Of a DNA stretch of 64,000 nucleotides, positions 12,221-61,102 are shown piece by piece (position 1 is the first letter of the stretch; each line of letters begins with the position of its first letter). Position numbers and translations under genes: made by a program. Location of the stretch: NCBI GenBank assembly GCA_963575645.1, contig OY754465.1:59171901-59235900 (forward strand), read 5' to 3'. Origin of the DNA: Xanthostigma xanthostigma (lineage: Eukaryota; Arthropoda; Insecta; Raphidioptera; Raphidiidae). A model generated the notes under the pieces. That model ran no database searches. It worked only from the letters and a program-made list of their open reading frames with translations, and had not been told where the DNA came from.

Positions 12221-15200
12221 TCAATCGACAAGATTACATTCTTCTCTGTGTTTCTTTAGCTTGATCCCAGCTAGTGGCTTTGTTAAGATATCTGCAGTCA
12301 TGTTTTCTGTTGCACAGTATCGCAGCTTTATAATTTGTTTCTTGACTAAGTCACTTACAAAATGGTATTTGGTGTCTATATGTTTGCTTCGACTTCTATG
12401 CCCTTTGTTCATCACCAATTGTATTGCACTTTGATTATCTTCGTATATTACAGTTGCTTCAGCTTGTTTTTCCCCAAAGTCTTCTAACAGTCGCCGTATC
12501 CACAGTAGTTCTCTACTAGCTTCTGCAAGAGCTATATATTCTGCTTCGCAGCTAGACCAAGCTGTGCATGTTTGTTTCCTGCATGTCCAGGCAATGGTGC
12601 CTCCGTTGTACTGAAATAGATAACCACTGTGTGACTTCCTGTCTTCTCTATCCTCCGCCCAATCCGCGTCCGCAAATCCGATCAGATTACTCATGTCTCC
12701 TCCTAATTTCAATCTGAGATTTTTTGTTCCTTTTAAATAGCGAACAACCCTTTTTGCCTCGTTCCAGTCGGTTTGCGTAGGACTTTTGACCCATTGACTT
12801 AAAATAGATACGCATGCTGTAATATCTGGACGTGTGTGTGTCGCCACGTATAGTAGAGCTCCAATAAGCTTCTGATAATCATTGTTGTTATTCATAGTTT
12901 TTCGATCACGCAATATTTTCAGATAACCTGTGTCCATTGGCAATTTTGAAGATTTTGCGTTCTCTAATCCGAATTTTTCAGTAATTTTCTCAATGTATGT
13001 AGTTTGATTTAGGTAAAAAATCCCCTCCTCATCGCGTTGTACATCGATCCCGAGATAATTAGATAGCTCACCAAGATGACTGAGTTCAAATTCCTTTTCT
13101 AGCCCTCTTGCTATATTTTCGATGGCGGACATGTCCAAGCAAACAATAAGTAAGTCGTCTACATGAAACACCACGTATTCAGTTTCCCTTTCAGTGTGTC
13201 TTGAATACAAACAAGGATCTGATTGACTCTGCTTGAAACCAAGGTTTACAATTGTCATGTGTAGCTTTTCGTACCATGTCATCGCCGCCTGTTTTAGACC
13301 ATATATGCTTTTCTTGAGCTTACATGCCAGATGTTCCTTGCCTGGAACTATATAACCATCGGGTTGCTTCATATATATCGTTTTATCTAACTTCCCGTTG
13401 AGAAATGCAGTTTTAGCATCGAAATGATGAACTAGTAATTTTCTTTTAGCTGCAATTGTAAGCAATAAACGTAAAGTTACTGCTGTCACAACTGGGGCAA
13501 ATACTTCGTCATAGTCTGTGCCGTATTTTTGGCTGAAACCTTGCGCGACCAGTCTTGCTTTATATTTCATTATCCCGGTATCCTTATTTTCCTTTCTCTT
13601 AAACACCCACTTGCATCCGACTGGTTTTCTGTCATTTGGTGTCTCTGCAAGTTCCCAAGTATGATTCTTTTGTAGAGATTGCAGCTCTTCGTCCATCGCT
13701 TTGTTCCAGTGATCGCAATCTGGTCCATTAAGAGCTTCCGTTCTGTTTCGTGGTTCTCTATATTCTTGAATCACAGTCTTTGCTGAATGTTCAAACCTCT
13801 CTGGAGGTTTTCCTTTATTTTGGCGTTCAGAGCGCCTTTCAGTTAAGTCGCTTAGATCTTCTTGAGATCCTGGATACACGTATGTCTGATCTGCTTCTTC
13901 TGTTTGTTCAAATGTTAATTCTGCATCAGACATATCCAGAATGTTTCTTGGTATAACTGCTACTTGTTGCCTTTGCAGTTCGATCAAGTCGTTTTGATCT
14001 TGATCTTCTTCATTTTTCTCGTCAAAATCTTCTCCAAGTCGTATCTGTACGTTTTGCAATTGTTTCTTCTTCATTTCTACTGTCGGTCTTTTCACCTTCA
14101 TCACTTCATTGTCATGATCGTCGAGCTCCACAAATCTCACGTCTCTATTGATAGTAATTTTATTTGTTTCTGTATCGAGCATTCTATATGCTTTTGCTTC
14201 TGTAGAATATCCAACAAATGTTAATAACCTTGCCTTATTATCGAGTTTCTTTCTTTTTTCTTTAGGTATGAACGTGTATCCTTTACATCCAAATATCTTC
14301 AAATGCTCCACTCCTGGTTTTTTGTTGTTCCACAGCTCGTAAGGTGTTTTTCCTGTTATTTTTATGGGCAATCTATTTTGTAAATAATTTGCAGTGTTCA
14401 CTGCTTCTGCCCAGTATTTATTCTGAAGTCCTGCGTCTATAAGCATACATCTAGCCGCCTCAGTAAGCGTCCTGTTTTTGCGTTCTGCAACCCCGTTTTG
14501 TTGAGGTGAGTACGGCGCTGTATATTGTCCTCGTATACCTTCCTCAGCATAAAATTCCTTTAACTCTTTATTTACATATTCACCTCCATTATCAGATCTT
14601 ATTATTTTTGGTTTTTTATTAAATTTATTTGCTGCATACCTGATGTACTCTTTGATTTGCTTCGGTGCTTCCGACTTATTTTTCAAGAAATATATTTCCG
14701 TATATCTGCTATAATCGTCAATCATTGTCATAAAATATCTTTTACCACTTGGCGTTGCTGTATTCATTGGTCCACATAGATCAGTGTGTACAAGATCTAA
14801 TATGGAAGTCGCCCTATTAGTCGACGTCTTTGGAAAAGATGCTCTGGTTTGTTTTCCTTTAGCGCAACATCCGCATATTTCCTTGATTCCGCAATCACGT
14901 ATTGTAATCCCTGACACCATTCCTTTATCTTGTAGTATCTTTATGTCTTGAATGTGTCTATGGCCAAACCTTTTGTGCCAAGTATGCTGACACAGATCTG
15001 TATGTTGTCTCACATTAGCTGCCGATTCTCCTTGCTGCACATTTAATTTATACATACCAGATGATAGATATGCTGATGCTATTGTAGTATTCTCTTTAAC
15101 GATTTTGCATTCCTTATCATGAAATTTCACATCCAGGCCTTTACCCGTCAATTTCTTCACTGACAGCAAACCTTCAGTTAGATCAGGAACATACAAGACG

Positions 15201-16186
15201 TCTTGAAGCTTCACTGTAATAGATTTGTTCTGTTCATTTAGACATTCTAATTTTCCTGACCCAAATCCGAGTACTTTAGCTCTTTGTCCATTTGCCAAAG
15301 TAACGTTAGATTTTCTGTTTTCATCAAGAACATCAAAAAATCCTTTGTTGCCTGTCATGTGACTCGTGGCACCGGAATCAACGTACCACACGTTCTTATT
15401 GCTCGTGTTGTGATGAACACTAAAACAAACATGCTCTGATTCGCCCTCATTGTCCTCAACTTTATTTGCCTTTTCTTTATTCGTTTTCCATTTTTGATAC
15501 TTTCTACAATCCTGTTTGAAATGTCCCATTTTCTTGCAGAAGAAACAAGTGACTTTATTGGCGACTGATTGTTGCTTTTCTGATGCTTTCATAGCAGTGC
15601 TTGACTCCCCTGAGTCTGGAACACCTTGTCTTCTCTTGTGTTCATCAATGAGTTTACCTTTAACTAAATTCAGTGTTAGTTCTTCCTCGGGTCTGCTTTC
15701 CAATGCTGTAATTAGAGTGCTGTAAGACTCAGGCAAGCTACTGAGCAGCATGGCGACGAAGAGATGATCCTTTACTTCTTCTCCAAGTGCCGTAAGCTTA
15801 TCCACGAGATCCTGCATGGTCGTTACATGTTCTTCCATGTTTCCTGATTCAGCGAGTTTCAAATTGCAAATCTGCCTCAGCAGATACACTTTGCTGGTTA
15901 GTGTCGACTTCTCATGATAATTTTTCAATGATTCCCAAACCAGTTTAGCTGATTTTTCCTTCCGTATGTGTATCAGTTGAGAGTCTTCGACTAGCAGTCC
16001 TATAGTAGCACGCGCCTTGTTATCTTTCTTATCCCATGCAGCAGCCGTTGTCGGATCCGTTGGTCTTTCTGTGACTATTGCAGTCCATAAATCTTCCTTA
16101 ATGAGTAATAATTCCATTTTAAATTTCCACACTTGATAATTATCATTGTTCAATTTATTTACATATGAACGTAACGAATCTGCCAT
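12221..16186 (-). CDS. Copia gag-pol polyprotein
   Basis: A single frame of about 1321 residues, counting from MADSLRSYV. I chose this start because the upstream in-frame extension runs through the primer-binding site into the LTR. In order: a copia-type Gag; a CCHC knuckle (CFFCKKMGHFKQDC); an aspartic protease (VDSGATSHMTG); GAG-pre-integrase and a DDE integrase core (HTDLCGPM, DNGGEYVN, SPQQNGVAERKNRT); a reverse transcriptase with HVDDLLIV at the YVDD position; and RNase H ending with the copia-typical SKHIDTKYHF. Length and order are normal for the family. Copia makes Gag by alternative splicing or processing of this frame. Confidence 0.93.
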   Translation of the reverse strand: MADSLRSYVNKLNNDNYQVWKFKMELLLIKEDLWTAIVTERPTDPTTAAAWDKKDNKARATIGLLVEDSQLIHIRKEKSAKLVWESLKNYHEKSTLTSKVYLLRQICNLKLAESGNMEEHVTTMQDLVDKLTALGEEVKDHLFVAMLLSSLPESYSTLITALESRPEEELTLNLVKGKLIDEHKRRQGVPDSGESSTAMKASEKQQSVANKVTCFFCKKMGHFKQDCRKYQKWKTNKEKANKVEDNEGESEHVCFSVHHNTSNKNVWYVDSGATSHMTGNKGFFDVLDENRKSNVTLANGQRAKVLGFGSGKLECLNEQNKSITVKLQDVLYVPDLTEGLLSVKKLTGKGLDVKFHDKECKIVKENTTIASAYLSSGMYKLNVQQGESAANVRQHTDLCQHTWHKRFGHRHIQDIKILQDKGMVSGITIRDCGIKEICGCCAKGKQTRASFPKTSTNRATSILDLVHTDLCGPMNTATPSGKRYFMTMIDDYSRYTEIYFLKNKSEAPKQIKEYIRYAANKFNKKPKIIRSDNGGEYVNKELKEFYAEEGIRGQYTAPYSPQQNGVAERKNRTLTEAARCMLIDAGLQNKYWAEAVNTANYLQNRLPIKITGKTPYELWNNKKPGVEHLKIFGCKGYTFIPKEKRKKLDNKARLLTFVGYSTEAKAYRMLDTETNKITINRDVRFVELDDHDNEVMKVKRPTVEMKKKQLQNVQIRLGEDFDEKNEEDQDQNDLIELQRQQVAVIPRNILDMSDAELTFEQTEEADQTYVYPGSQEDLSDLTERRSERQNKGKPPERFEHSAKTVIQEYREPRNRTEALNGPDCDHWNKAMDEELQSLQKNHTWELAETPNDRKPVGCKWVFKRKENKDTGIMKYKARLVAQGFSQKYGTDYDEVFAPVVTAVTLRLLLTIAAKRKLLVHHFDAKTAFLNGKLDKTIYMKQPDGYIVPGKEHLACKLKKSIYGLKQAAMTWYEKLHMTIVNLGFKQSQSDPCLYSRHTERETEYVVFHVDDLLIVCLDMSAIENIARGLEKEFELSHLGELSNYLGIDVQRDEEGIFYLNQTTYIEKITEKFGLENAKSSKLPMDTGYLKILRDRKTMNNNNDYQKLIGALLYVATHTRPDITACVSILSQWVKSPTQTDWNEAKRVVRYLKGTKNLRLKLGGDMSNLIGFADADWAEDREDRKSHSGYLFQYNGGTIAWTCRKQTCTAWSSCEAEYIALAEASRELLWIRRLLEDFGEKQAEATVIYEDNQSAIQLVMNKGHRSRSKHIDTKYHFVSDLVKKQIIKLRYCATENMTADILTKPLAGIKLKKHREECNLVD

Positions 16187-16230
16187 ATTTAACCTTATAT
16201 CTTTAGTATTGATCACCTGGGCCCATAACC

Positions 16231-16506
16231 TGTTAGTATATTTATTTGTATACTGATTAATGTACAACTTTAATTTTGATAATTCCTTTATTTGGTCCAA
16301 TCAGACGAACAATAATTTTGTGAATAATTATGGAATGGAATTTTTACAATTTTGATTTTGAAAAAATAATTTTAACTAAATATTTATTGCATAAGTTTTA
16401 AATAATGTTAGATAATTTAATAAGATTAAAATAATAATATTCTATAGTAAAGCTCCATTCACATTGGTATTATAATTGTTGCAATACTTATACATATAAT
16501 TCAACA
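16231..16506 (-). repeat. 5' LTR of the copia element
   Basis: 276 bp. Followed on the minus strand by the primer-binding site and then the gag start. Confidence 0.92.
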
Positions 16507-31900: not shown

Positions 31901-34900
31901 CCTTACCTGGCAAGGTATTATCTTGTACCTCCGTCTTCACTTCTAAAAGACTTTTATTGTTATCGTTGTTTTCAATATTGGTCTCGTCATCTTTAGTAAC
32001 ATTTTCGGTTTGATTATTTTGCGTCAACTCTGCATTTGACTGTTTTCTGCTAAGCTCTTTGTTTGAAACAATTTCCTTGTTCATAGACATTTTGTCGAGT
32101 TTTATTTCCTCGGTTTTCTTTTCTCCTTGACTTAACTTCTTAGCAAAATTATCTAAATTCTGACTTAGTTTATTCAAGTGTCCATCTCGGACCAACCTAA
32201 TACTATCCATTTCTGTACCGACAGATTTGTTAACGAGTTCATCCTGTAAAATCGTACCTTCGCTTTTTGTCGTAAACTTAACCGTAGCATTTTTGTCTTT
32301 CAAACTTAACTTAGAGAGCGATTTAGTTATTTTATCTGTCGATTTTTTATGATCCAACTCGTTTTTTAAAAAATGTTCTTCACAAGAGCTACGTAATGAA
32401 GCTAAACTCACATACTGACCATCGGTAGAATGGGATGGGCTCAACGGTTCATTCTGATCGGTCGTTTGGACTCCGTGACTTACAGATCTGAATACATAAA
32501 AAAATTGCAGTTTTGTATTGCAATAAATTCGGTATTTGCGTGTAAAGTAAATTACATAAATTATAAGAAAAACTCATGATCTCAGACAATCACGAATACA
32601 CTAATCTGACGCTTCTATTTCCTGATTAAAAAATGAACTTTAAAATTTGAGTTGAAAATAAAGAGTTTAGGCATTAAGGAACAAAATAAGTGACAAATAT
32701 TAAATCTTTGATTAACGTCTGATTAGAACTCTTCAATAAATAAAATTAGCGACCAATTTTTCAGACAATATATTAACAAAATATATAATTAATACATTAA
32801 CGTTTCGATCCGGATTTGGACCTTCTTCAGAACTGATCCAAAAAATACAAAAATTTTTTTGATATTATTAATAATTTTGAAAGAATTTTATAAAAAGCGA
32901 ATTAGAAATTAAATATTAATTATTTTTTATATTTTTAGATCAGTTCTGAAGAAGGTCCAAATCCGGATCGAAACGTTAATGTATTAATTATATATTTTGT
33001 TAATATATTGTCTGAAAAATTGGTCGATAATTTTATTTATTGAAGACAAATATTAAAGTCTTACGAGTTTCATTTCAAAACTCGATAATCATGAACTTGT
33101 CACTAATTTTCAAGTTATCGAGATACTCATAAACATTTTCAGCATAACTTCAGCCCACTTTCGACGACTAGCCAATGAAACTGACAGATTTCTCTGCAAC
33201 TATAATTACTATACTTGAAATGTGACGGTATCACGGTATTAATACGCACTCATATCTATCTATAGTGCATAACAAGCTGTACCGGGGTAAAAGTTTTGGG
33301 TACATTCAGCGTGGTTCCCTATCTTATAGTATATGCGGTCAGAGACATGTTTTCGTCTACAATTGAATCTATCAAAACACCCTTAAGGTTACCCAACCAC
33401 CAAGATTATATACAAATAAATATAGTTTTAAAAAAACTAAAAAACACGCTTTATATCGAACTAAAAAGTAAAAAATATTTTTTTTTAAATAAGCTTAAAA
33501 AGCGTGGGGCGCTTTGTTCCACATTTTCGTACATCGAGCGCCCCACGCTTTTTAAGCTTATTTTAAAAAAATTATTTTTTACTTTTTAGTTCGACATAAA
33601 GCGCGTTTTTTAGTTTCTTTTTAAACTATGTTTATTTTTTACTTTTTAGTTTGATATAAAGCGTGTTTTTTAGTTTTTTTTAAACTATATTCATTTTGCA
33701 CTTTTTAGTTCGATTTATTGTCAAAAATTTGCCGAAAAAAAAACAATTTTTTTTTTCGGCGTGGACGGGATTAGAACCCATGACCCGTGATGCCGAGAGT
33801 TGACGTCAGCGAAGACCCGTGCTTTAGACCGCACGGCTACCCATTGTACTTACAGTGCTGGCATATAATACCACTATATAAACCACTTGCTGTAGTCCAA
33901 ATGGAGATTACAAACATACATACAAACTTACAAGTGAAACTAATATAAAGCGTGTAAAAATATAACAAAGCAATACCTGATTTGGCTGTTACTTTTCTGC
34001 ATTAAATCGCTTCTTTGTTTCTCCTTAGCTTGCATTTGTGGCAAAGACAGGGGCTGAGTCAAAGGCATGGACTGAGGATCTTCAGTTATTAGCACGTGTC
34101 CATCGACAAAAGGATGGTTCAAAATGTCAGGCCAGCGCATTCGTTTTTGAGGATCTTTTTGTAGCAAACCCTAAAAGTGTCAATGATGTAAGTGATATTT
34201 TAGAAGTCCAGCAAACTTTAATCAAATATTTTTCTTCACGAATTGGTTGATGTTTCTCAAACTTTAACTATGTGAAAGCTGACAGCTTCTATTGTAATAT
34301 TATTTCTACTAGTGTGACCTGTGCGAATTATTCGCACTAAATAAGTATAATAATTATCACTTTAGCAAATTATTTTTTAAATATGATTGCAGGTATCCAA
34401 TTCGTTTCTAATTTTGCACACTGCTTATAACGTTCTTGTTTTTGTTGTATTACAATATGAAGCTCAGATGACAGATCGAAGAAATATTTTACTAAAATTG
34501 TCATATAGAGGCGCAAGTAGCAAAAGCGTTGAGCTAAGCCGTCAGATGGCATCATGCAGCATTGCTGTGACGTTGTTCAGCGTTGCTCGCTGTTTCAAAA
34601 TTAAAGCCGTCAGATGGCAGTATGCAGTATTATGTCTGTTGTATTACAATATGAAGGTCAGATGACAGATCGAAGTGTTGACGTTGTTTCAAAATTAAAG
34701 CCGTCAGATGGCAGACGTTGTTCAGCGTTGCTGTATTTTAATTAATTTACAAAAACAAAAGCAATAATAAATTTTTTAGTTGTCGATGTCAGTAGAGCAA
34801 GCAATTATCTGTAAAATGATATATAATTTATGTGGAGAAATTGTGTGGTTTTTTCTAAAAAGGGAGGCAAACATCTTAACCTTAGCGTATTAATATATAT

Positions 34901-37642
34901 GACATGATTTTTGTTTCTACAGCAAAACTTATCCAAAAGTAACTATTACATATAAAAAAATATGATGAGTAGTTTTAATATAAGGTCCTAAGATTTAAAA
35001 TACCTGCAAAAACGACACGCACTGGGACGAAATAAACTCCGGCCACTGCACCTGTTCGCATCGAATCATCCTGACGAGATGAAGAATCGACGTAGTGCAA
35101 AACGGAGGAGCTCCGGTTAACAGTTCGTACACTATGCATCCTAACGACCACAAATCCGCTGCATGATCGTATGGCTCCTCGGCTATGAGTTCGGGTGCCA
35201 TGTAGAGAGGCGTACCTTTAATCGACGTCAATACATGAGTACCCGTGCTCATACTGCGAGCCAATCCGAAATCGCAAAGTTTAGCTGTGTTCTTAGAATC
35301 GAGAAGAATATTTTGTGGCTTTAAATCCCTGAAATAATTACAATAATATTGAAAAAACTCGGGTCGCAGTGTCAAACTCTACTGTTAGTATATTTTGCTG
35401 AAACAGGCCGAGTGGCTTTATTATGTGAAGTTGAGTTTGTTTTTAGACAAAATAAAAAATTCTTAATTTCAATATTATTATCAATCCAGCATCTACATCA
35501 AATTATATACACCTTTCAGTAAGCAAATTCATATCCGCAAACTAGTATTTTCATAAAATGTATAAGTCCGGTCCTGTCGGGCCGATTATATTAAAATTTT
35601 AGCAGCACACTCTAATCTTTACTAAACGGTTTAATTTAAATTTTGAAACAATTCTGATAATTTCTTCGGTATTTTTGAGTCCAAAAGCTTTTTTCAATCT
35701 CTAAAAACCGTTCTTAAATTGGTCGGATTGGGTCCATTTTAAATAGGCTTAGAGCGGTGATGGGTTCCAATATGTGAACCAAATTTCGTCAAAATCGAAT
35801 AACTCTTTCGAAAGTTATTGCCCGTACACACTAGTGATGTGCCGGATCGTTAAAAATGTATATCCGCGGATACGGATCTGAATACGGATATTTGATTTCA
35901 AGATCCGCGGATACGGACACGGATCTTAACTTTCTTAGAGTACGCGGCGGTAAATATTGCACATCGACCTTTGGAAAGAGACTATCTGTTATGGGAAAAA
36001 GTTATTGACCTCTTTAAGAGTTAACTCTCATAACAGATTGTCTCTTTCCAAAGATTGATGTGCAATATCTCATTACAAAAATAGTTTTTTACTACCTTTG
36101 AGTTATGTACTATTAGTATGGTACTCACTACGATAAATGTTTGCAATATAAAGGTGCCAAATACGATTTAAAAAAAAAAAATAATCTGAATGGAATTTAA
36201 CAGTTTTTCATTATTACCTAATCACCTATATATATAAAATTTCATCTATGAATTGAAAATTAATAAGGTAAAAGATCCGTAAAAGATTCGCCAAAAACTA
36301 ACGGATATGGATCTTTCTTCTCCCTCGGATATCCGAGGATACGGATACGGATATCCGGCACATCACTAGTACACACACATACACATTTTCAAAAATGGTG
36401 CCAAAATGTTCAAGAGGTTATGAAACGTCGAGAAATTTTAATCAAATCCTCAGCTCCCGTCACCCGACTGATGCCAATAGTGTGTGTGCCATATGGAAAA
36501 TAATAAGTATTGTCTGGTGTATTATAAGACCGATTGTGACCTACGGCCGGTAAAAGTTTCGTGCTCCGATCTGTCTCTGCAGGTTATTATACTTGCCTGT
36601 GTAAAACTCGATGAGAATGTAAATAGTATAATGCAGACACCAAGTCCCATACAATTATCCGTACTCTATCCTCCGGTAAATAGCCCTCTTTTCCGAGGAT
36701 TACGTGCAATTCTTTCCGAGCGAATTCTGTTACGACTACAATCTGAAACGTTTGCATATAAACATATCAGCACCAAGCCTTCCTATCCCGAAATATAATT
36801 AGAAAAATAAATTGAATTTAAATTTAAACAAAACAAAAACTATGCTACCCAAAATTCCTGAAAATAAATTTAACTATGACCTAAGAGTGAGTTTAAATAA
36901 ATCAACAATTGATTATTGTCTCCGAACATCTAACAAATTTGTGTAAAAATTTTTTTTATCTTTGTAGTTCGTAAAATATTCCGAAATTGTGTAAATTTTA
37001 CAGATTAGATTGACCATCGATAAGAAAGCCTTTTAATTTTCTTATCTAATTTGGAAGGCTCAGAAAGAGCACTACTATACCATTATTAAATAACACTTAC
37101 TAGCAAAACTAATCAGAAAATAATATATTTCAATCATTTAGAATTGAAATTAATTGTCACCCAAAAGTATGATAATTTTATTACAAAACATTCTTAACTT
37201 TATTAAAACAATCAATCGGTTAAGTGCAGTGTTTGAGCCTAATACAGAATGATCGTTCTAACTTCTATATTAATCTCAAATACTGTGCAAAACTCTGATT
37301 CAATCATTTCAACTATGTTTTAAAAAATAGTAAATTCTAACCTCATTTTCGGTCTCAAATGAATCGAGCATCTGAATTATATTGGGATGATGCAAATGCT
37401 GCTGTATTTCACATTCTCTTCTCAAGCCTTTCAGTTCATCTTGTGAACGCCCTCGCTATTCCAAAAAAAAGAAAGGAATTGGCATAAAAAAGCCTCATAA
37501 ATTAAATAAATTTTTGGTACATAACAATTACCTTTCTAATAACTTTTAAAGCTACTGTTTCCTTGTCAGAATTACGTTTTGCTTTGTATACCCGTCCAAA
37601 AGATCCTTCTCCAACCAAACTAACAATCTGATACTTATCCAT
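28927..37642 (-). CDS. fu: Serine/threonine kinase Fused (STK36 orthologue), 10 exons
   Basis: Exons: 37642-37532, 37455-37342, 36742-36597, 35328-35004, 34170-33977, 32487-31907, 31283-30946, 30311-30023, 29949-29642, 28992-28927. They sum to 2472 nt, 823 aa plus TAA; Drosophila Fused is 805 aa. The kinase spans about residues 4-254: GEGSFGRV glycine loop, VALK with K33, HRD with D125, DFG with D143, and GTPLYMAPE after a Thr-rich activation loop. Residues about 297-490 (exon 6) are Ser/Lys-rich and probably disordered. The rest is the helical C-terminal regulatory region, ending YEQSETD. Fused acts in the cytoplasm downstream of Smoothened in Hedgehog signalling. All exon phases agree. Donors are GT except exon 3, which uses GC. 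Introns 3-9 are full of transposons. Confidence 0.93.
29333..29603. mobile_element. hAT-type MITE in fu intron 9, 271 bp
   Basis: Perfect 13-bp TIRs CAGCCCCGGATCT and AGATCCGGGGCTG, with perfect 8-bp target duplication CGTAACAC (29325-29332 and 29604-29611). Confidence 0.9.
30639..30945. mobile_element. Repeat in fu intron 7, abutting the exon 7 donor
   Basis: The right part (cagtcagtcgctcac...ctcgtttaaatactaccc, about 30776-30947) and left part (ttagaaaacgcagttctatt) both match the interior of the 47140-48395 element. An internal stretch is locally duplicated (the gtcacgcgcagtcagtcgct block occurs twice). The shared homology reaches the exon 7 boundary, so the donor gtagta may belong to the repeat. 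Confidence 0.65.
31382..31784. mobile_element. TIR element in fu intron 6, family copy 1
   Basis: Ends taaaggttgctacacacgaa and ...cctcatgtgcagcggcttta are inverted copies over about 35 bp (core ctggttttgccgctaga). Other copies lie at 45946-46371 and 54487-55488. Possibly PIF/Harbinger-like (TAA/TTA at the edges), but the target duplication is ambiguous. Confidence 0.7.
31790..31890. repeat. Short cctaaccttacta minisatellite
   Basis: About four imperfect copies of cctaaccttacta lie just inside fu intron 6, next to the exon 6 donor. Confidence 0.55.
32735..33042. repeat. Foldback element in fu intron 5, hammerhead-like cores
   Basis: Arms of about 130 bp. The right arm carries CTGAAGA (32946-32952), a GGTCC/GGATC stem with loop aaatcc, then GAAAC (32970-32974). 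The left arm is its inverse. One arm recurs alone at 62757-62815, and outer blocks recur at 8905-9225. Confidence 0.65.
33420..33961 (-). mobile_element. Hairpin element with tRNA-Leu-like module, copy 1
   Basis: The ends carry acacgctttatat and aatataaagcgtgt in inverse orientation. A long palindrome centres on 33513-33537, between gcgtggggcgc and gcgccccacgc. On the minus strand, 33757-33847 resembles tRNA-Leu: an A-box-like tagccgtgcgg, a long variable region, and a near B box ggttctaatcc. It sits in fu intron 5, ending about 15 nt from the exon 5 donor. The palindrome arms here lack the caataat...attattg segment present in copies 2 and 3. Confidence 0.7.
34325..34905. repeat. Dispersed repeat in fu intron 4, copy 2
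   Basis: Matches 24535-24960. The gccgtcagatggca block is present in additional tandem copies here. Confidence 0.8.
35832..36368. mobile_element. hAT-type MITE in fu intron 3, 537 bp
   Basis: Termini TAGTGATGTGCCGGAT and ATCCGGCACATCACTA, with perfect 8-bp target duplication GTACACAC (35824-35831 and 36369-36376). The ends carry repeated ggatacggatac subterminal motifs. The centre holds an inverted repeat (gaaagagactatctgttatg and its inverse). A sister copy is at 54667-55207. Confidence 0.9.
36597..36742 (-). CDS. fu: fu exon 3, followed by a GC-AG intron
   Basis: It encodes the kinase segment from [12 protein letters not shown] to [14 protein letters not shown], joining phase 0 to FETENE and phase 2 to DLKPQN. 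The donor reads CACAG|GCAAGT, a non-canonical GC donor with an otherwise ideal consensus. No in-frame GT alternative preserves HRD. Confidence 0.88.
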
Positions 37643-51071: not shown

Positions 51072-52067
51072 CAGTCAAACCTGAGTGAGTGAGAACTGGG
51101 TAAGCGAGAAAACTCTCTAAGTGAGATTAATTGCCCAGGTATCGTCTTTGTAACCCTCTAAAACCTCTATATGTGAGCAAGAGAAACTTCTATAAGAGAA
51201 AGACGTTTTTCACTCATGGACCTCTATAACTGAGACTACTACTTGCCTGCCCTCTATAAGCGATAGTCGAACGTATTAATAGTTCCACGAATTTTAAGAA
51301 TGAGTCATAAATAGCTGAACTAACTAACATTGTTTTTGTATAATATTATAGTTTGTATAGACCTCTATAATAAAAAAGGTCACCCCTACAGTAACTCTAT
51401 AAGCTAGGAACTCGGATTAGTGAAAAACCTTCATAAGCAAATATTTTTTTTAAAATAAGCTTAAAACAATAATGAATAAAAAATACTAGTATTATTGTGA
51501 AAAAAGCGTGGGGCGTCTTGTTCCACATTTTCGTACATCGAGTGCCCCACTCTTTTTTCACAATAATACTAGTATTTTTTATTCATTATTGTTTTAAGCT
51601 TATATTTTAAAAAAAATATTTTTTACTTTTTAGTTCGATATAAAGCGTGTCTTTCAGTTTATTTTTTAAACTATATTTATTTTCCACTTTTTAGTTCGAT
51701 TTATTGTCAAAAATTTGCCGAAAAAAAAACAATCTTTTTTTTCGGCGTGGACGGGGTTAGAACCCACGGCCCGTGATTCTGAGAGTTGACGTCAGCAAAG
51801 GCCCGTGCCTTAGACCGCACGGCTAACCACTGTAGTTGCAGTGCTGGCATATTATACTACAGTAATATCCCACTTGCTGTAGTCCAAACGAAGGTTACAA
51901 ACAAACATACATACATCCATACAAACTTACAAGTGAAGTTAATATAAAGCGTGTAAAAAGATCACCTCTGTACCTTTATATAAGCTAGAAACTCGGTTTA
52001 GTAAAAAACCTCCATAAGCATGAAAGAGATCGCGGTTCCTTAAACTCTGGCTTATCCAGGTTCGCTG
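51072..52067. mobile_element. pogo-like element split by a hairpin/tRNA-like element
   Basis: Termini CAGTCAAACCTGAGTGAG and (inverse) CAGCGAACCTGGATAAGC with flanking TA. The interior has repeated ctctataa-gcgag style motifs. A copy of the hairpin element (51420-51962) sits inside, bracketed by two similar blocks (aaactcggttta...cataagca at 51399-51441 and 51976-52020). No transposase frame. Confidence 0.65.
51420..51962 (-). mobile_element. Hairpin element with tRNA-Leu-like module, copy 2
   Basis: The palindrome centre at about 51515-51542 has the same orientation as copy 1. The tRNA-like module is 51744-51834 on the minus strand. The arms are longer than in copy 1 because they contain the caataatgaataaaaaatac segment. 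Confidence 0.7.
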
Positions 52068-60555: not shown

Positions 60556-61102
60556 AAAAACTAAAAAACACGCTTTATACCTATCGAACTAAAAAGTAAA
60601 AAAATTTTTTTTTTTAAATAAGCTTAAAACAATAATAAATAAAAAATACAAGTATTATTGTGAAAAAAGCGTGGGGCGCTCGATGTACAAAAATGTGGAA
60701 CAAAGCGCCCCACGTTTTTTTCACAAAAATACCTGTATTTTTTATTCATTATTGTTTTAAGCTTATTTAAAAAAAATATTTTTTACTTTTTAGTTCGATA
60801 TAAAGCGTGTTTTTTAGTTTTTTTTTTAAACTATATTTATTTTCCACTTTTTAGTTCGATTTATTGTCAAAAATTTGCCGAAAAAAAACATTTTTTTTTT
60901 CGACGTGGACGGGATTAGACCCACGACCCGTGATTCCGAGAGTTGACGTCAGCGAAGACCCGTGCCTTAGACGGCTAACCGTGACTGTAGTTACAGTGCT
61001 GGCATATTATACTACTTACAGTAATAAACCACTTGCTGTAGTTCAAACGAAGGTTACAAACATACATACAAACTTAAGTTAATATAAAGCGTGCAAAAAG
61101 AT
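60556..61102 (-). mobile_element. Hairpin element with tRNA-Leu-like module, copy 3 (loop inverted)
   Basis: It starts directly at the right end of the TIR element. The palindrome arms match copy 2 (caataataaataaaaaatac segment present). The 25-nt centre at 60680-60704 is the reverse complement of the centre in copies 1 and 2, while the flanking arms and the tRNA-like module (60901-60995) keep the same orientation. Confidence 0.75.

Follow-up and report, generated by a model that had tools for sequence, protein, structure and literature searches.

Foldback elements and MITEs carry long inverted repeats and no genes, and their target site is duplicated. In excerpts of their description (PMC4067079), HINE or DINE-1 elements have subterminal inverted repeats of 12-15 bp, close to the terminus at the 5' end and some tens of bases inside it at the 3' end (2-4 nt and 38-60 nt, respectively, in mite HINEs) and a palindrome of 5-10 bp situated 8-35 bp from the 3' end, and they insert in T-rich sequence without a clear target-site duplication. 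The 3' terminator of the Helitron Helraiser is also a hairpin, given in the relevant part of PMC4778049 as a 19-bp palindrome 11 nt from the CTAG end. The terminal repeats of AAV are palindromes found in two configurations, flip and flop (PMC1131931, in excerpt). Template switching has been documented to produce loop inversion and paired stem changes at hairpins (PMC8794818); in the sections of that study that treat RNA genes, the inverted loops are mostly of 4 nt and reach 7-8 nt, and complete loop inversions are termed very rare.

Here we describe a HINE-like element with a flip/flop hairpin, in which the inversion is real and recurrent. It occurs in the window, by which we mean the whole 64,000-nt stretch analysed (Xanthostigma xanthostigma, contig OY754465.1). 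Like HINE or DINE-1 elements as excerpted in PMC4067079, it is non-coding, present in high copy number and furnished with 13-bp subterminal inverted repeats, a short palindrome near the 3' end and T-rich variable termini, but it also has a ~290-bp terminal palindrome with a two-way loop, a feature unmentioned for HINEs in those excerpts. Like the rolling-circle transposon Helraiser (PMC4778049, in part) it has a hairpin at its 3' end, but one whose arms measure ~130 bp and extend to the terminal bases. As in the excerpted account of AAV (PMC1131931) a terminal palindrome exists in two configurations, but here the palindrome is at one end only and the ratio is 3:1. Symmetric stem changes and in-place loop inversion are common to the element and to the template-switch mutations of PMC8794818 (in the sections cited above), although here the loop is 25 nt long, each arm measures ~130 bp and inverted copies make up about a quarter of the total. 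Loop inversion is known for small RNA hairpins, and the element is a large, mobile version; a limited search of the open-access literature turned up no account of a transposon hairpin whose loop inverts.

Anatomy and identity of the element

Direct reading of the window shows three copies of one ~530-bp element, and BLAST of the three against the window (E<=1e-5) returned no fourth. The element consists of a ~290-bp palindrome at one end and a ~250-bp non-palindromic tail, and the order of arms and tail is identical in all three (Table 1). The loop of copy 1 reads tttgttccacattttcgtacatcga; that of copy 2, cttgttccacattttcgtacatcga, is one base off it, and that of copy 3, tcgatgtacaaaaatgtggaacaaa, is its reverse complement. 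The first-pass annotation had noted three copies with shared arms, a central palindrome and a module on the same side, and a reversed centre in copy 3 with arms and tail unflipped. Reading and BLAST bear out the former and reading the latter, with one mismatch relative to copy 1, and the starts it gave for copies 1 and 2 (33420 and 51420) hold approximately, copy 1 running from ~33414 and the match of copy 2 from 51439. Copy 1 has the same ~40-bp deletion in both arms, plus an extra tandem ~55-bp unit.

Table 1. Features of the three copies, in window positions; the minus strand is the one that runs from the presumed 5' T-string end to the 3' hairpin end.
Feature	Position	Strand	Remarks
Copy 1	33414..33960	-	orientation A; short-arm subfamily
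Copy 1 loop	33513..33537		orientation A
Copy 2	51439..51962	-	orientation A; full-arm subfamily; left end truncated
Copy 2 loop	51517..51541		orientation A
Copy 3	60556..61099	-	loop orientation B; left end truncated
Copy 3 left arm of palindrome	60556..60679		terminal arm
Copy 3 loop	60680..60704		25 nt; orientation B, opposite to that in copies 1 and 2
Copy 3 right arm of palindrome	60705..60843		internal arm
Copy 3 tail	60844..61099	-	box A/B-like words; subterminal repeat ATATAAAGCGTG near right end

In 68 loci taken with 1.5-kb flanks, the intact element runs from (A)AATAAATATAGTTTAAAAAAAACTAAAAAACACGC at the left to ATATAAAGCGTGTAAAAA at the right, and the inner end motifs, where both are present, are 499-608 bases apart. 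The palindrome, with its ~130-bp arms around the 25-nt loop, extends to the element's very first bases. The hairpin of copy 3 (60556-60840) has a folding energy of -111 kcal/mol as single-stranded DNA, against a shuffle mean of -29 (z -24), and the 3' end of the right-to-left strand is a near-perfect hairpin of ~290 nt with a 25-nt loop. The flanks of copy 2 (51398-51439 and 51979-52020) form an imperfect ~40-bp direct repeat, ataagctaggaactcgg...ccttcataagca, seen by eye, and the left end of this copy is truncated at that repeat. Elsewhere in the window Pfam identifies a protein kinase domain in a 126-aa frame (34995-35375, minus strand), from which copy 1 is ~1 kb away, and a Copia-type gag-pol in an open frame of 1359 aa (12221-16300, minus strand).

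The absence of a target-site duplication, the subterminal inverted repeats, the small 3' palindrome and the T-rich variable ends suggest that this non-coding, highly repeated and mobile element is a non-autonomous Helentron (HINE), presumably moved by a rolling-circle Rep/helicase. The 13-bp subterminal inverted repeats, ACACGCTTTATAT / ATATAAAGCGTGT, are set in by ~5 nt at the 5' end and by ~29 nt at the 3' end, just outside both ranges given for mite HINEs in the excerpts of PMC4067079, and the consensus shows the short palindrome (TAGTTT..AAACTA) ~9 nt from the 3' end. Flank words of 60 copies showed no clear excess over shuffled flanks that would indicate a target-site duplication (best count of matching words 13 vs 8.9 expected, in A-rich ends), and the one empty site found sits in an A-run, where the junction is not clean. 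The HINE traits present are the subterminal inverted repeats, the 3' palindrome and T-rich insertion without a clear target-site duplication. In its long inverted repeats and lack of genes the element also resembles foldback elements and MITEs, from which it differs in that no target-site duplication was detected; a MITE, foldback or TIR transposon was rejected because none of fixed length was found in the 60 copies.

A HINE is expected to have an autonomous partner with the same ends that encodes Rep, helicase and endonuclease. The Helitron Rep domain has 89 matches in the genome, including many 1555-aa frames of identical score on several contigs, which suggests a recent burst. Seven of the matching frames measure 2103-2509 aa, the size of endonuclease-bearing Helentrons (for example at C1:60108002, C2:56145664 and C10:6816221), and frames in this size range with Rep and with helicase are present as candidate partners. 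Head-to-tail junctions, expected of rolling-circle tandems, are few (2 genome-wide, with 0 for the controls, and 1 diverged junction in 64 flanks) and lend weak support. The tail had been described as a tRNA-Leu-like module; it shows box A/B-like words on the minus strand, which are visible by eye only. The tRNA models do not support that description: ARAGORN found 0 tRNAs in the window, copy 3 gave 10 Rfam matches at E<=1, none of them to the tRNA model, and that model was not the 1 match to the tail of locus L040 at E<=5. A tRNA-derived SINE was rejected on the lack of a tRNA match (ARAGORN, Rfam) and of a target-site duplication in 60 copies. The best Rfam matches of copy 3, to MIR8562 (64.2 of 211 bits) and U12 (35.2 of 53), fall below the gathering scores, and we attribute all 10 to chance, the hairpin being AT-rich. 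Another repeat, gagtgtgctttagaccacac...gactgaag, stands directly at the right of the element in L025, L028 and L047 and is present in L007 and L044 too.

Loop orientation across the genome

We counted loop orientation throughout the genome (623 Mb, 28 contigs) with exact patterns, which include the spacer to the tail, a spacer that mostly suits full-arm copies. These patterns gave 589 A (308 forward, 281 reverse) and 204 B (96 and 108), or 74% A and 26% B (~3:1), and the reversed control patterns gave 0. A single local rearrangement at copy 3 is ruled out by the 204 B loops, and with it the circumstance, named in the first-pass annotation as refuting recurrent flipping, that copy 3 would be the sole flipped member. 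The same annotation had proposed to count orientation over the genomic copies; both orientations proved common, also among close relatives, although the mix is not the roughly even one envisaged. An exact search of viral contigs with the loop core found no match.

The same picture was obtained with queries from which the loop had been left out. A module query returned 21 A, 11 B and 7 loopless copies among 39 fetched, the query copy being excluded; with the query copy included, a short-arm query returned 29 A, 6 B, 2 loopless and 3 unread among 40, and a full-arm query 20 A, 6 B, 5 untyped and 9 unread among 40 (in one batch of the latter 5 of 20 loops were typed by script and 10 more by eye from partial ends). 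Both loop orientations are thus shown to be common among otherwise matching copies. Queries that carry the loop behave otherwise, since all 60 copies fetched with A-loop queries (of 80 places) were A and 27 of the 29 fetched with a B-loop query (of 40 places) were B. Such returns, together with the weak clustering of orientation described below, would be expected if A and B were two old subfamilies, each fixed for its loop and mixed by recombination between copies. The one-sided returns are largely query bias, however, and the loop-free queries bring back both orientations, so that we regard two old subfamilies as very unlikely.

Among 148 module-bearing loci, 9 lack a loop by a rule allowing five errors (L071, L075, L076, L077, L084, L086, L091, L130 and L132). 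In L071 two adjacent palindromes without the GC-rich inner stem have, by eye, a new centre (GAATAAAAAATACAAG-like) in opposite orientations, which looks like a second, shorter flip system arising from fold-back at ATTATTGT.

Linkage and inheritance of orientation

The A consensus (95 copies) and the B consensus (44 copies) agree over ~540 bp save for the loop, a single site in the arms and a length difference of one base in the tail. To compare the loop with its surroundings, we calculated the association between markers in 138 copies. The ~40-bp deletion is strongly associated between the left and right arms (r2 = 0.86), as is arm site 29 (ACTAGT vs ACAAGT/ACTTGT; r2 = 0.61, 92 copies), and tail markers are associated with the deletion (r2 up to 0.72), whereas loop orientation shows r2 <= 0.085 with any tested marker. 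We obtained similar results for the 66 copies from loop-free queries [arm site between arms r2 = 0.58 (n = 34), deletion between arms r2 = 0.82, deletion against tail marker r2 up to 0.76, loop against any tested marker r2 <= 0.060]. Both arms of one copy are thereby shown to carry the same family-level substitution and deletion, and loop orientation is shown to vary almost independently of flanking markers that are themselves in linkage. Because the markers are linked across the loop while the loop itself is nearly unlinked, the loop must have flipped repeatedly. Exchange between copies can hardly flip a loop between linked flanking markers: markers in the arms ~30 bp to either side are linked mutually but hardly to the loop, and mixing of two subfamilies would need exchange confined to the loop again and again.

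Further symmetric arm variants were found by reading, as deletions in L079 (outer hairpin) and L103 and as the same 4-nt insertion in both arms of L142. Insertions of 4 nt of the TAGG/CCTA kind, an unusual class of mutation, recur in the arms of L012, L026, L050, L056, L082, L141, L142 and others. In L011 and L023 the ~55-bp unit is duplicated at the left end too, mirroring the right-side duplication of the short-arm subfamily.

Orientation is nevertheless weakly clustered on the tail. On a tree of 138 tails, itself of poor resolution (L081, which lacks the tail start, was left out), parsimony requires 34 orientation changes, against 37.6-37.8 with shuffled labels, and 42-49 of 500 shuffles were as low as 34; the branches with good support force 2 changes only. 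In a count of arm/tail haplotypes that leaves out ~20 of 139 copies with unlike arms, both orientations occur in 6 of the 49 haplotypes. Nearest tails agree in orientation more often than shuffled labels in the full, query-biased set of 138 (0.645 vs 0.560; 2/500) and among 35 copies from the short-arm query (0.829 vs 0.712; 21/500). The corresponding values are 0.667 vs 0.608 (87/500) for the 66 copies from loop-free queries, which comprise 49 A and 17 B, and 0.484 vs 0.525 (377/500) for 31 copies from the module query. This weak clustering indicates that loop orientation is partly inherited, but it hardly marks a stable subfamily. The idea of B as a subfamily was first hinted at by query-biased samples and is disfavoured by the loop-free searches and by linkage. 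Subfamily history alone does not explain the recurrent inversion of the loop.

Arm changes, mechanism and significance

To place the changes in time, we separated variants shared by many copies from rare arm substitutions, defined as those with at most 4 occurrences. There are 246 rare substitutions in left arms and 204 in right arms, with 6 symmetric pairs vs 1.05 by shuffling; under another counting rule there are 240, 201 and 9 symmetric. Rare changes are mostly one-sided, and resident copies are therefore not steadily homogenised, while the excess of symmetric ones shows that some conversion is recent or takes place in resident copies. Similarity between the two arms is 95.8% within a copy and 95.4% when the left arm of one copy is compared with the right arm of another, so that rewriting is invisible copy by copy, and the case for it is one that stands on a few family-level symmetric variants. 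Since these are common to many copies, they were made in source copies before the spread. With family-wide arm changes symmetric and private ones mostly not, hairpin-templated copying during multiplication fits best, and the hairpin seems to have been copied repeatedly from itself as the element multiplied.

The different rare changes carried by the two arms of one locus also bear on the quality of the assembly. Perfect inverted repeats confuse short-read assembly, and identical arms might let an assembler set the centre either way. Here, however, both arms of each locus are separately resolved, and an assembly of so few contigs suggests sequencing by long reads, which would cross a palindrome of 290 bp; an assembly or library artefact is therefore extremely unlikely.

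The explanation that we favour, with confidence a little past the midpoint, is that the HINE hairpin was rewritten and its loop flipped by template switching during copying of the element. The element would be copied, probably with one strand unpaired and folded up, and the polymerase would occasionally switch between arms or between strands of this hairpin. One arm would then serve as the template from which the other is rewritten, and a fraction of such events would also write the centre backwards, so that the loop flips and the outer sequence is unchanged. Template switching between arms or strands would explain rewritten arms and inverted loops at once, and a single event may do both. Flipping would be repeated, yet not at each copying, or else biased, because A outnumbers B by ~3:1 and orientation is weakly inherited. 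The same 3:1 ratio counts against template switching, in that free flipping at each cycle predicts otherwise, as do the sharing of orientation among tail neighbours and, where flipping and rewriting are confined to multiplication, the symmetric rare changes in excess of expectation. Of the alternatives offered in the first-pass annotation, flip/flop or a cruciform, the hairpin-based process they have in common is well supported, as the arms change together, but the evidence leans to template switching.

Tandem hairpins upstream of the module bear on template switching in both directions. Their count is a lower bound, many loci being short. At least 2 of 148 loci (L124 and L131) have tandem hairpins with opposite loops, A then B, and look like one hairpin copied twice, once in each direction; at least 2 others (L006 and L079) have the same orientation twice, B and B. 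That 2 of these 4 loci repeat one orientation counts against template switching. L131 and L079 were labelled and scored for their arms by the outer hairpin, and in L131 the hairpin on the module side has the opposite orientation to it.

Alternatively, the loop could be inverted in resident copies, through cruciform extrusion or recombination between the arms after insertion, with occasional gene conversion of the arms. Long near-perfect inverted repeats are prone to inversion, the palindrome is of this type, and the 6 symmetric rare changes would fit such conversion. If resident copies flip, B might also be older: among the 66 copies from loop-free queries, private changes in the tail amount to 1.23% in A copies and 1.37% in B copies (p = 0.19), and for all 138, a query-biased set, the values are 1.32% and 1.67%. 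B is slightly older in each comparison, though not significantly, and an age test with 17 B among 66 is weak. Rare arm changes are mostly one-sided, however, widely shared symmetric variants must have arisen before the spread, in source copies, and the weak clustering on the tail means that orientation is partly inherited, so that we consider inversion at resident copies rather unlikely.

A third process would be a rolling hairpin like that of parvoviruses, in which the 3' hairpin primes the second strand, a Rep nick resolves it and the loop inverts at each resolution; we think this improbable. Parvovirus flip and flop occur in about equal amounts, and here the two configurations are both present but unequal (589:204). 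The palindrome extends to the terminal bases, as a rolling hairpin would have it, but at one end only, and orientation is partly inherited. Many intact Rep-helicase frames exist in the genome, and a rolling hairpin would be expected to give both flip/flop and matching arms (PMC1131931, in the parts cited); work on Helitrons, in the excerpts of PMC4778049, describes circles. In its fullest form, a lineage of rolling-circle (HUH-Rep) transposons would have evolved a parvovirus-like self-priming 3' hairpin, formed by the displaced single strand and resolved by a nick, with the loop giving the parity of past resolutions and the arms rewritten, which we hold to be doubtful in like degree.

Hundreds of natural copies in one genome constitute a record of long-hairpin copying, in which loop inversion and arm rewriting are countable against linked markers. 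The element thus serves as a natural eukaryotic assay of template switching at hairpins, and perhaps of the second-strand step of rolling-circle transposition as well, and it would tie the biology of transposons to the way in which parvoviruses replicate their hairpin ends.
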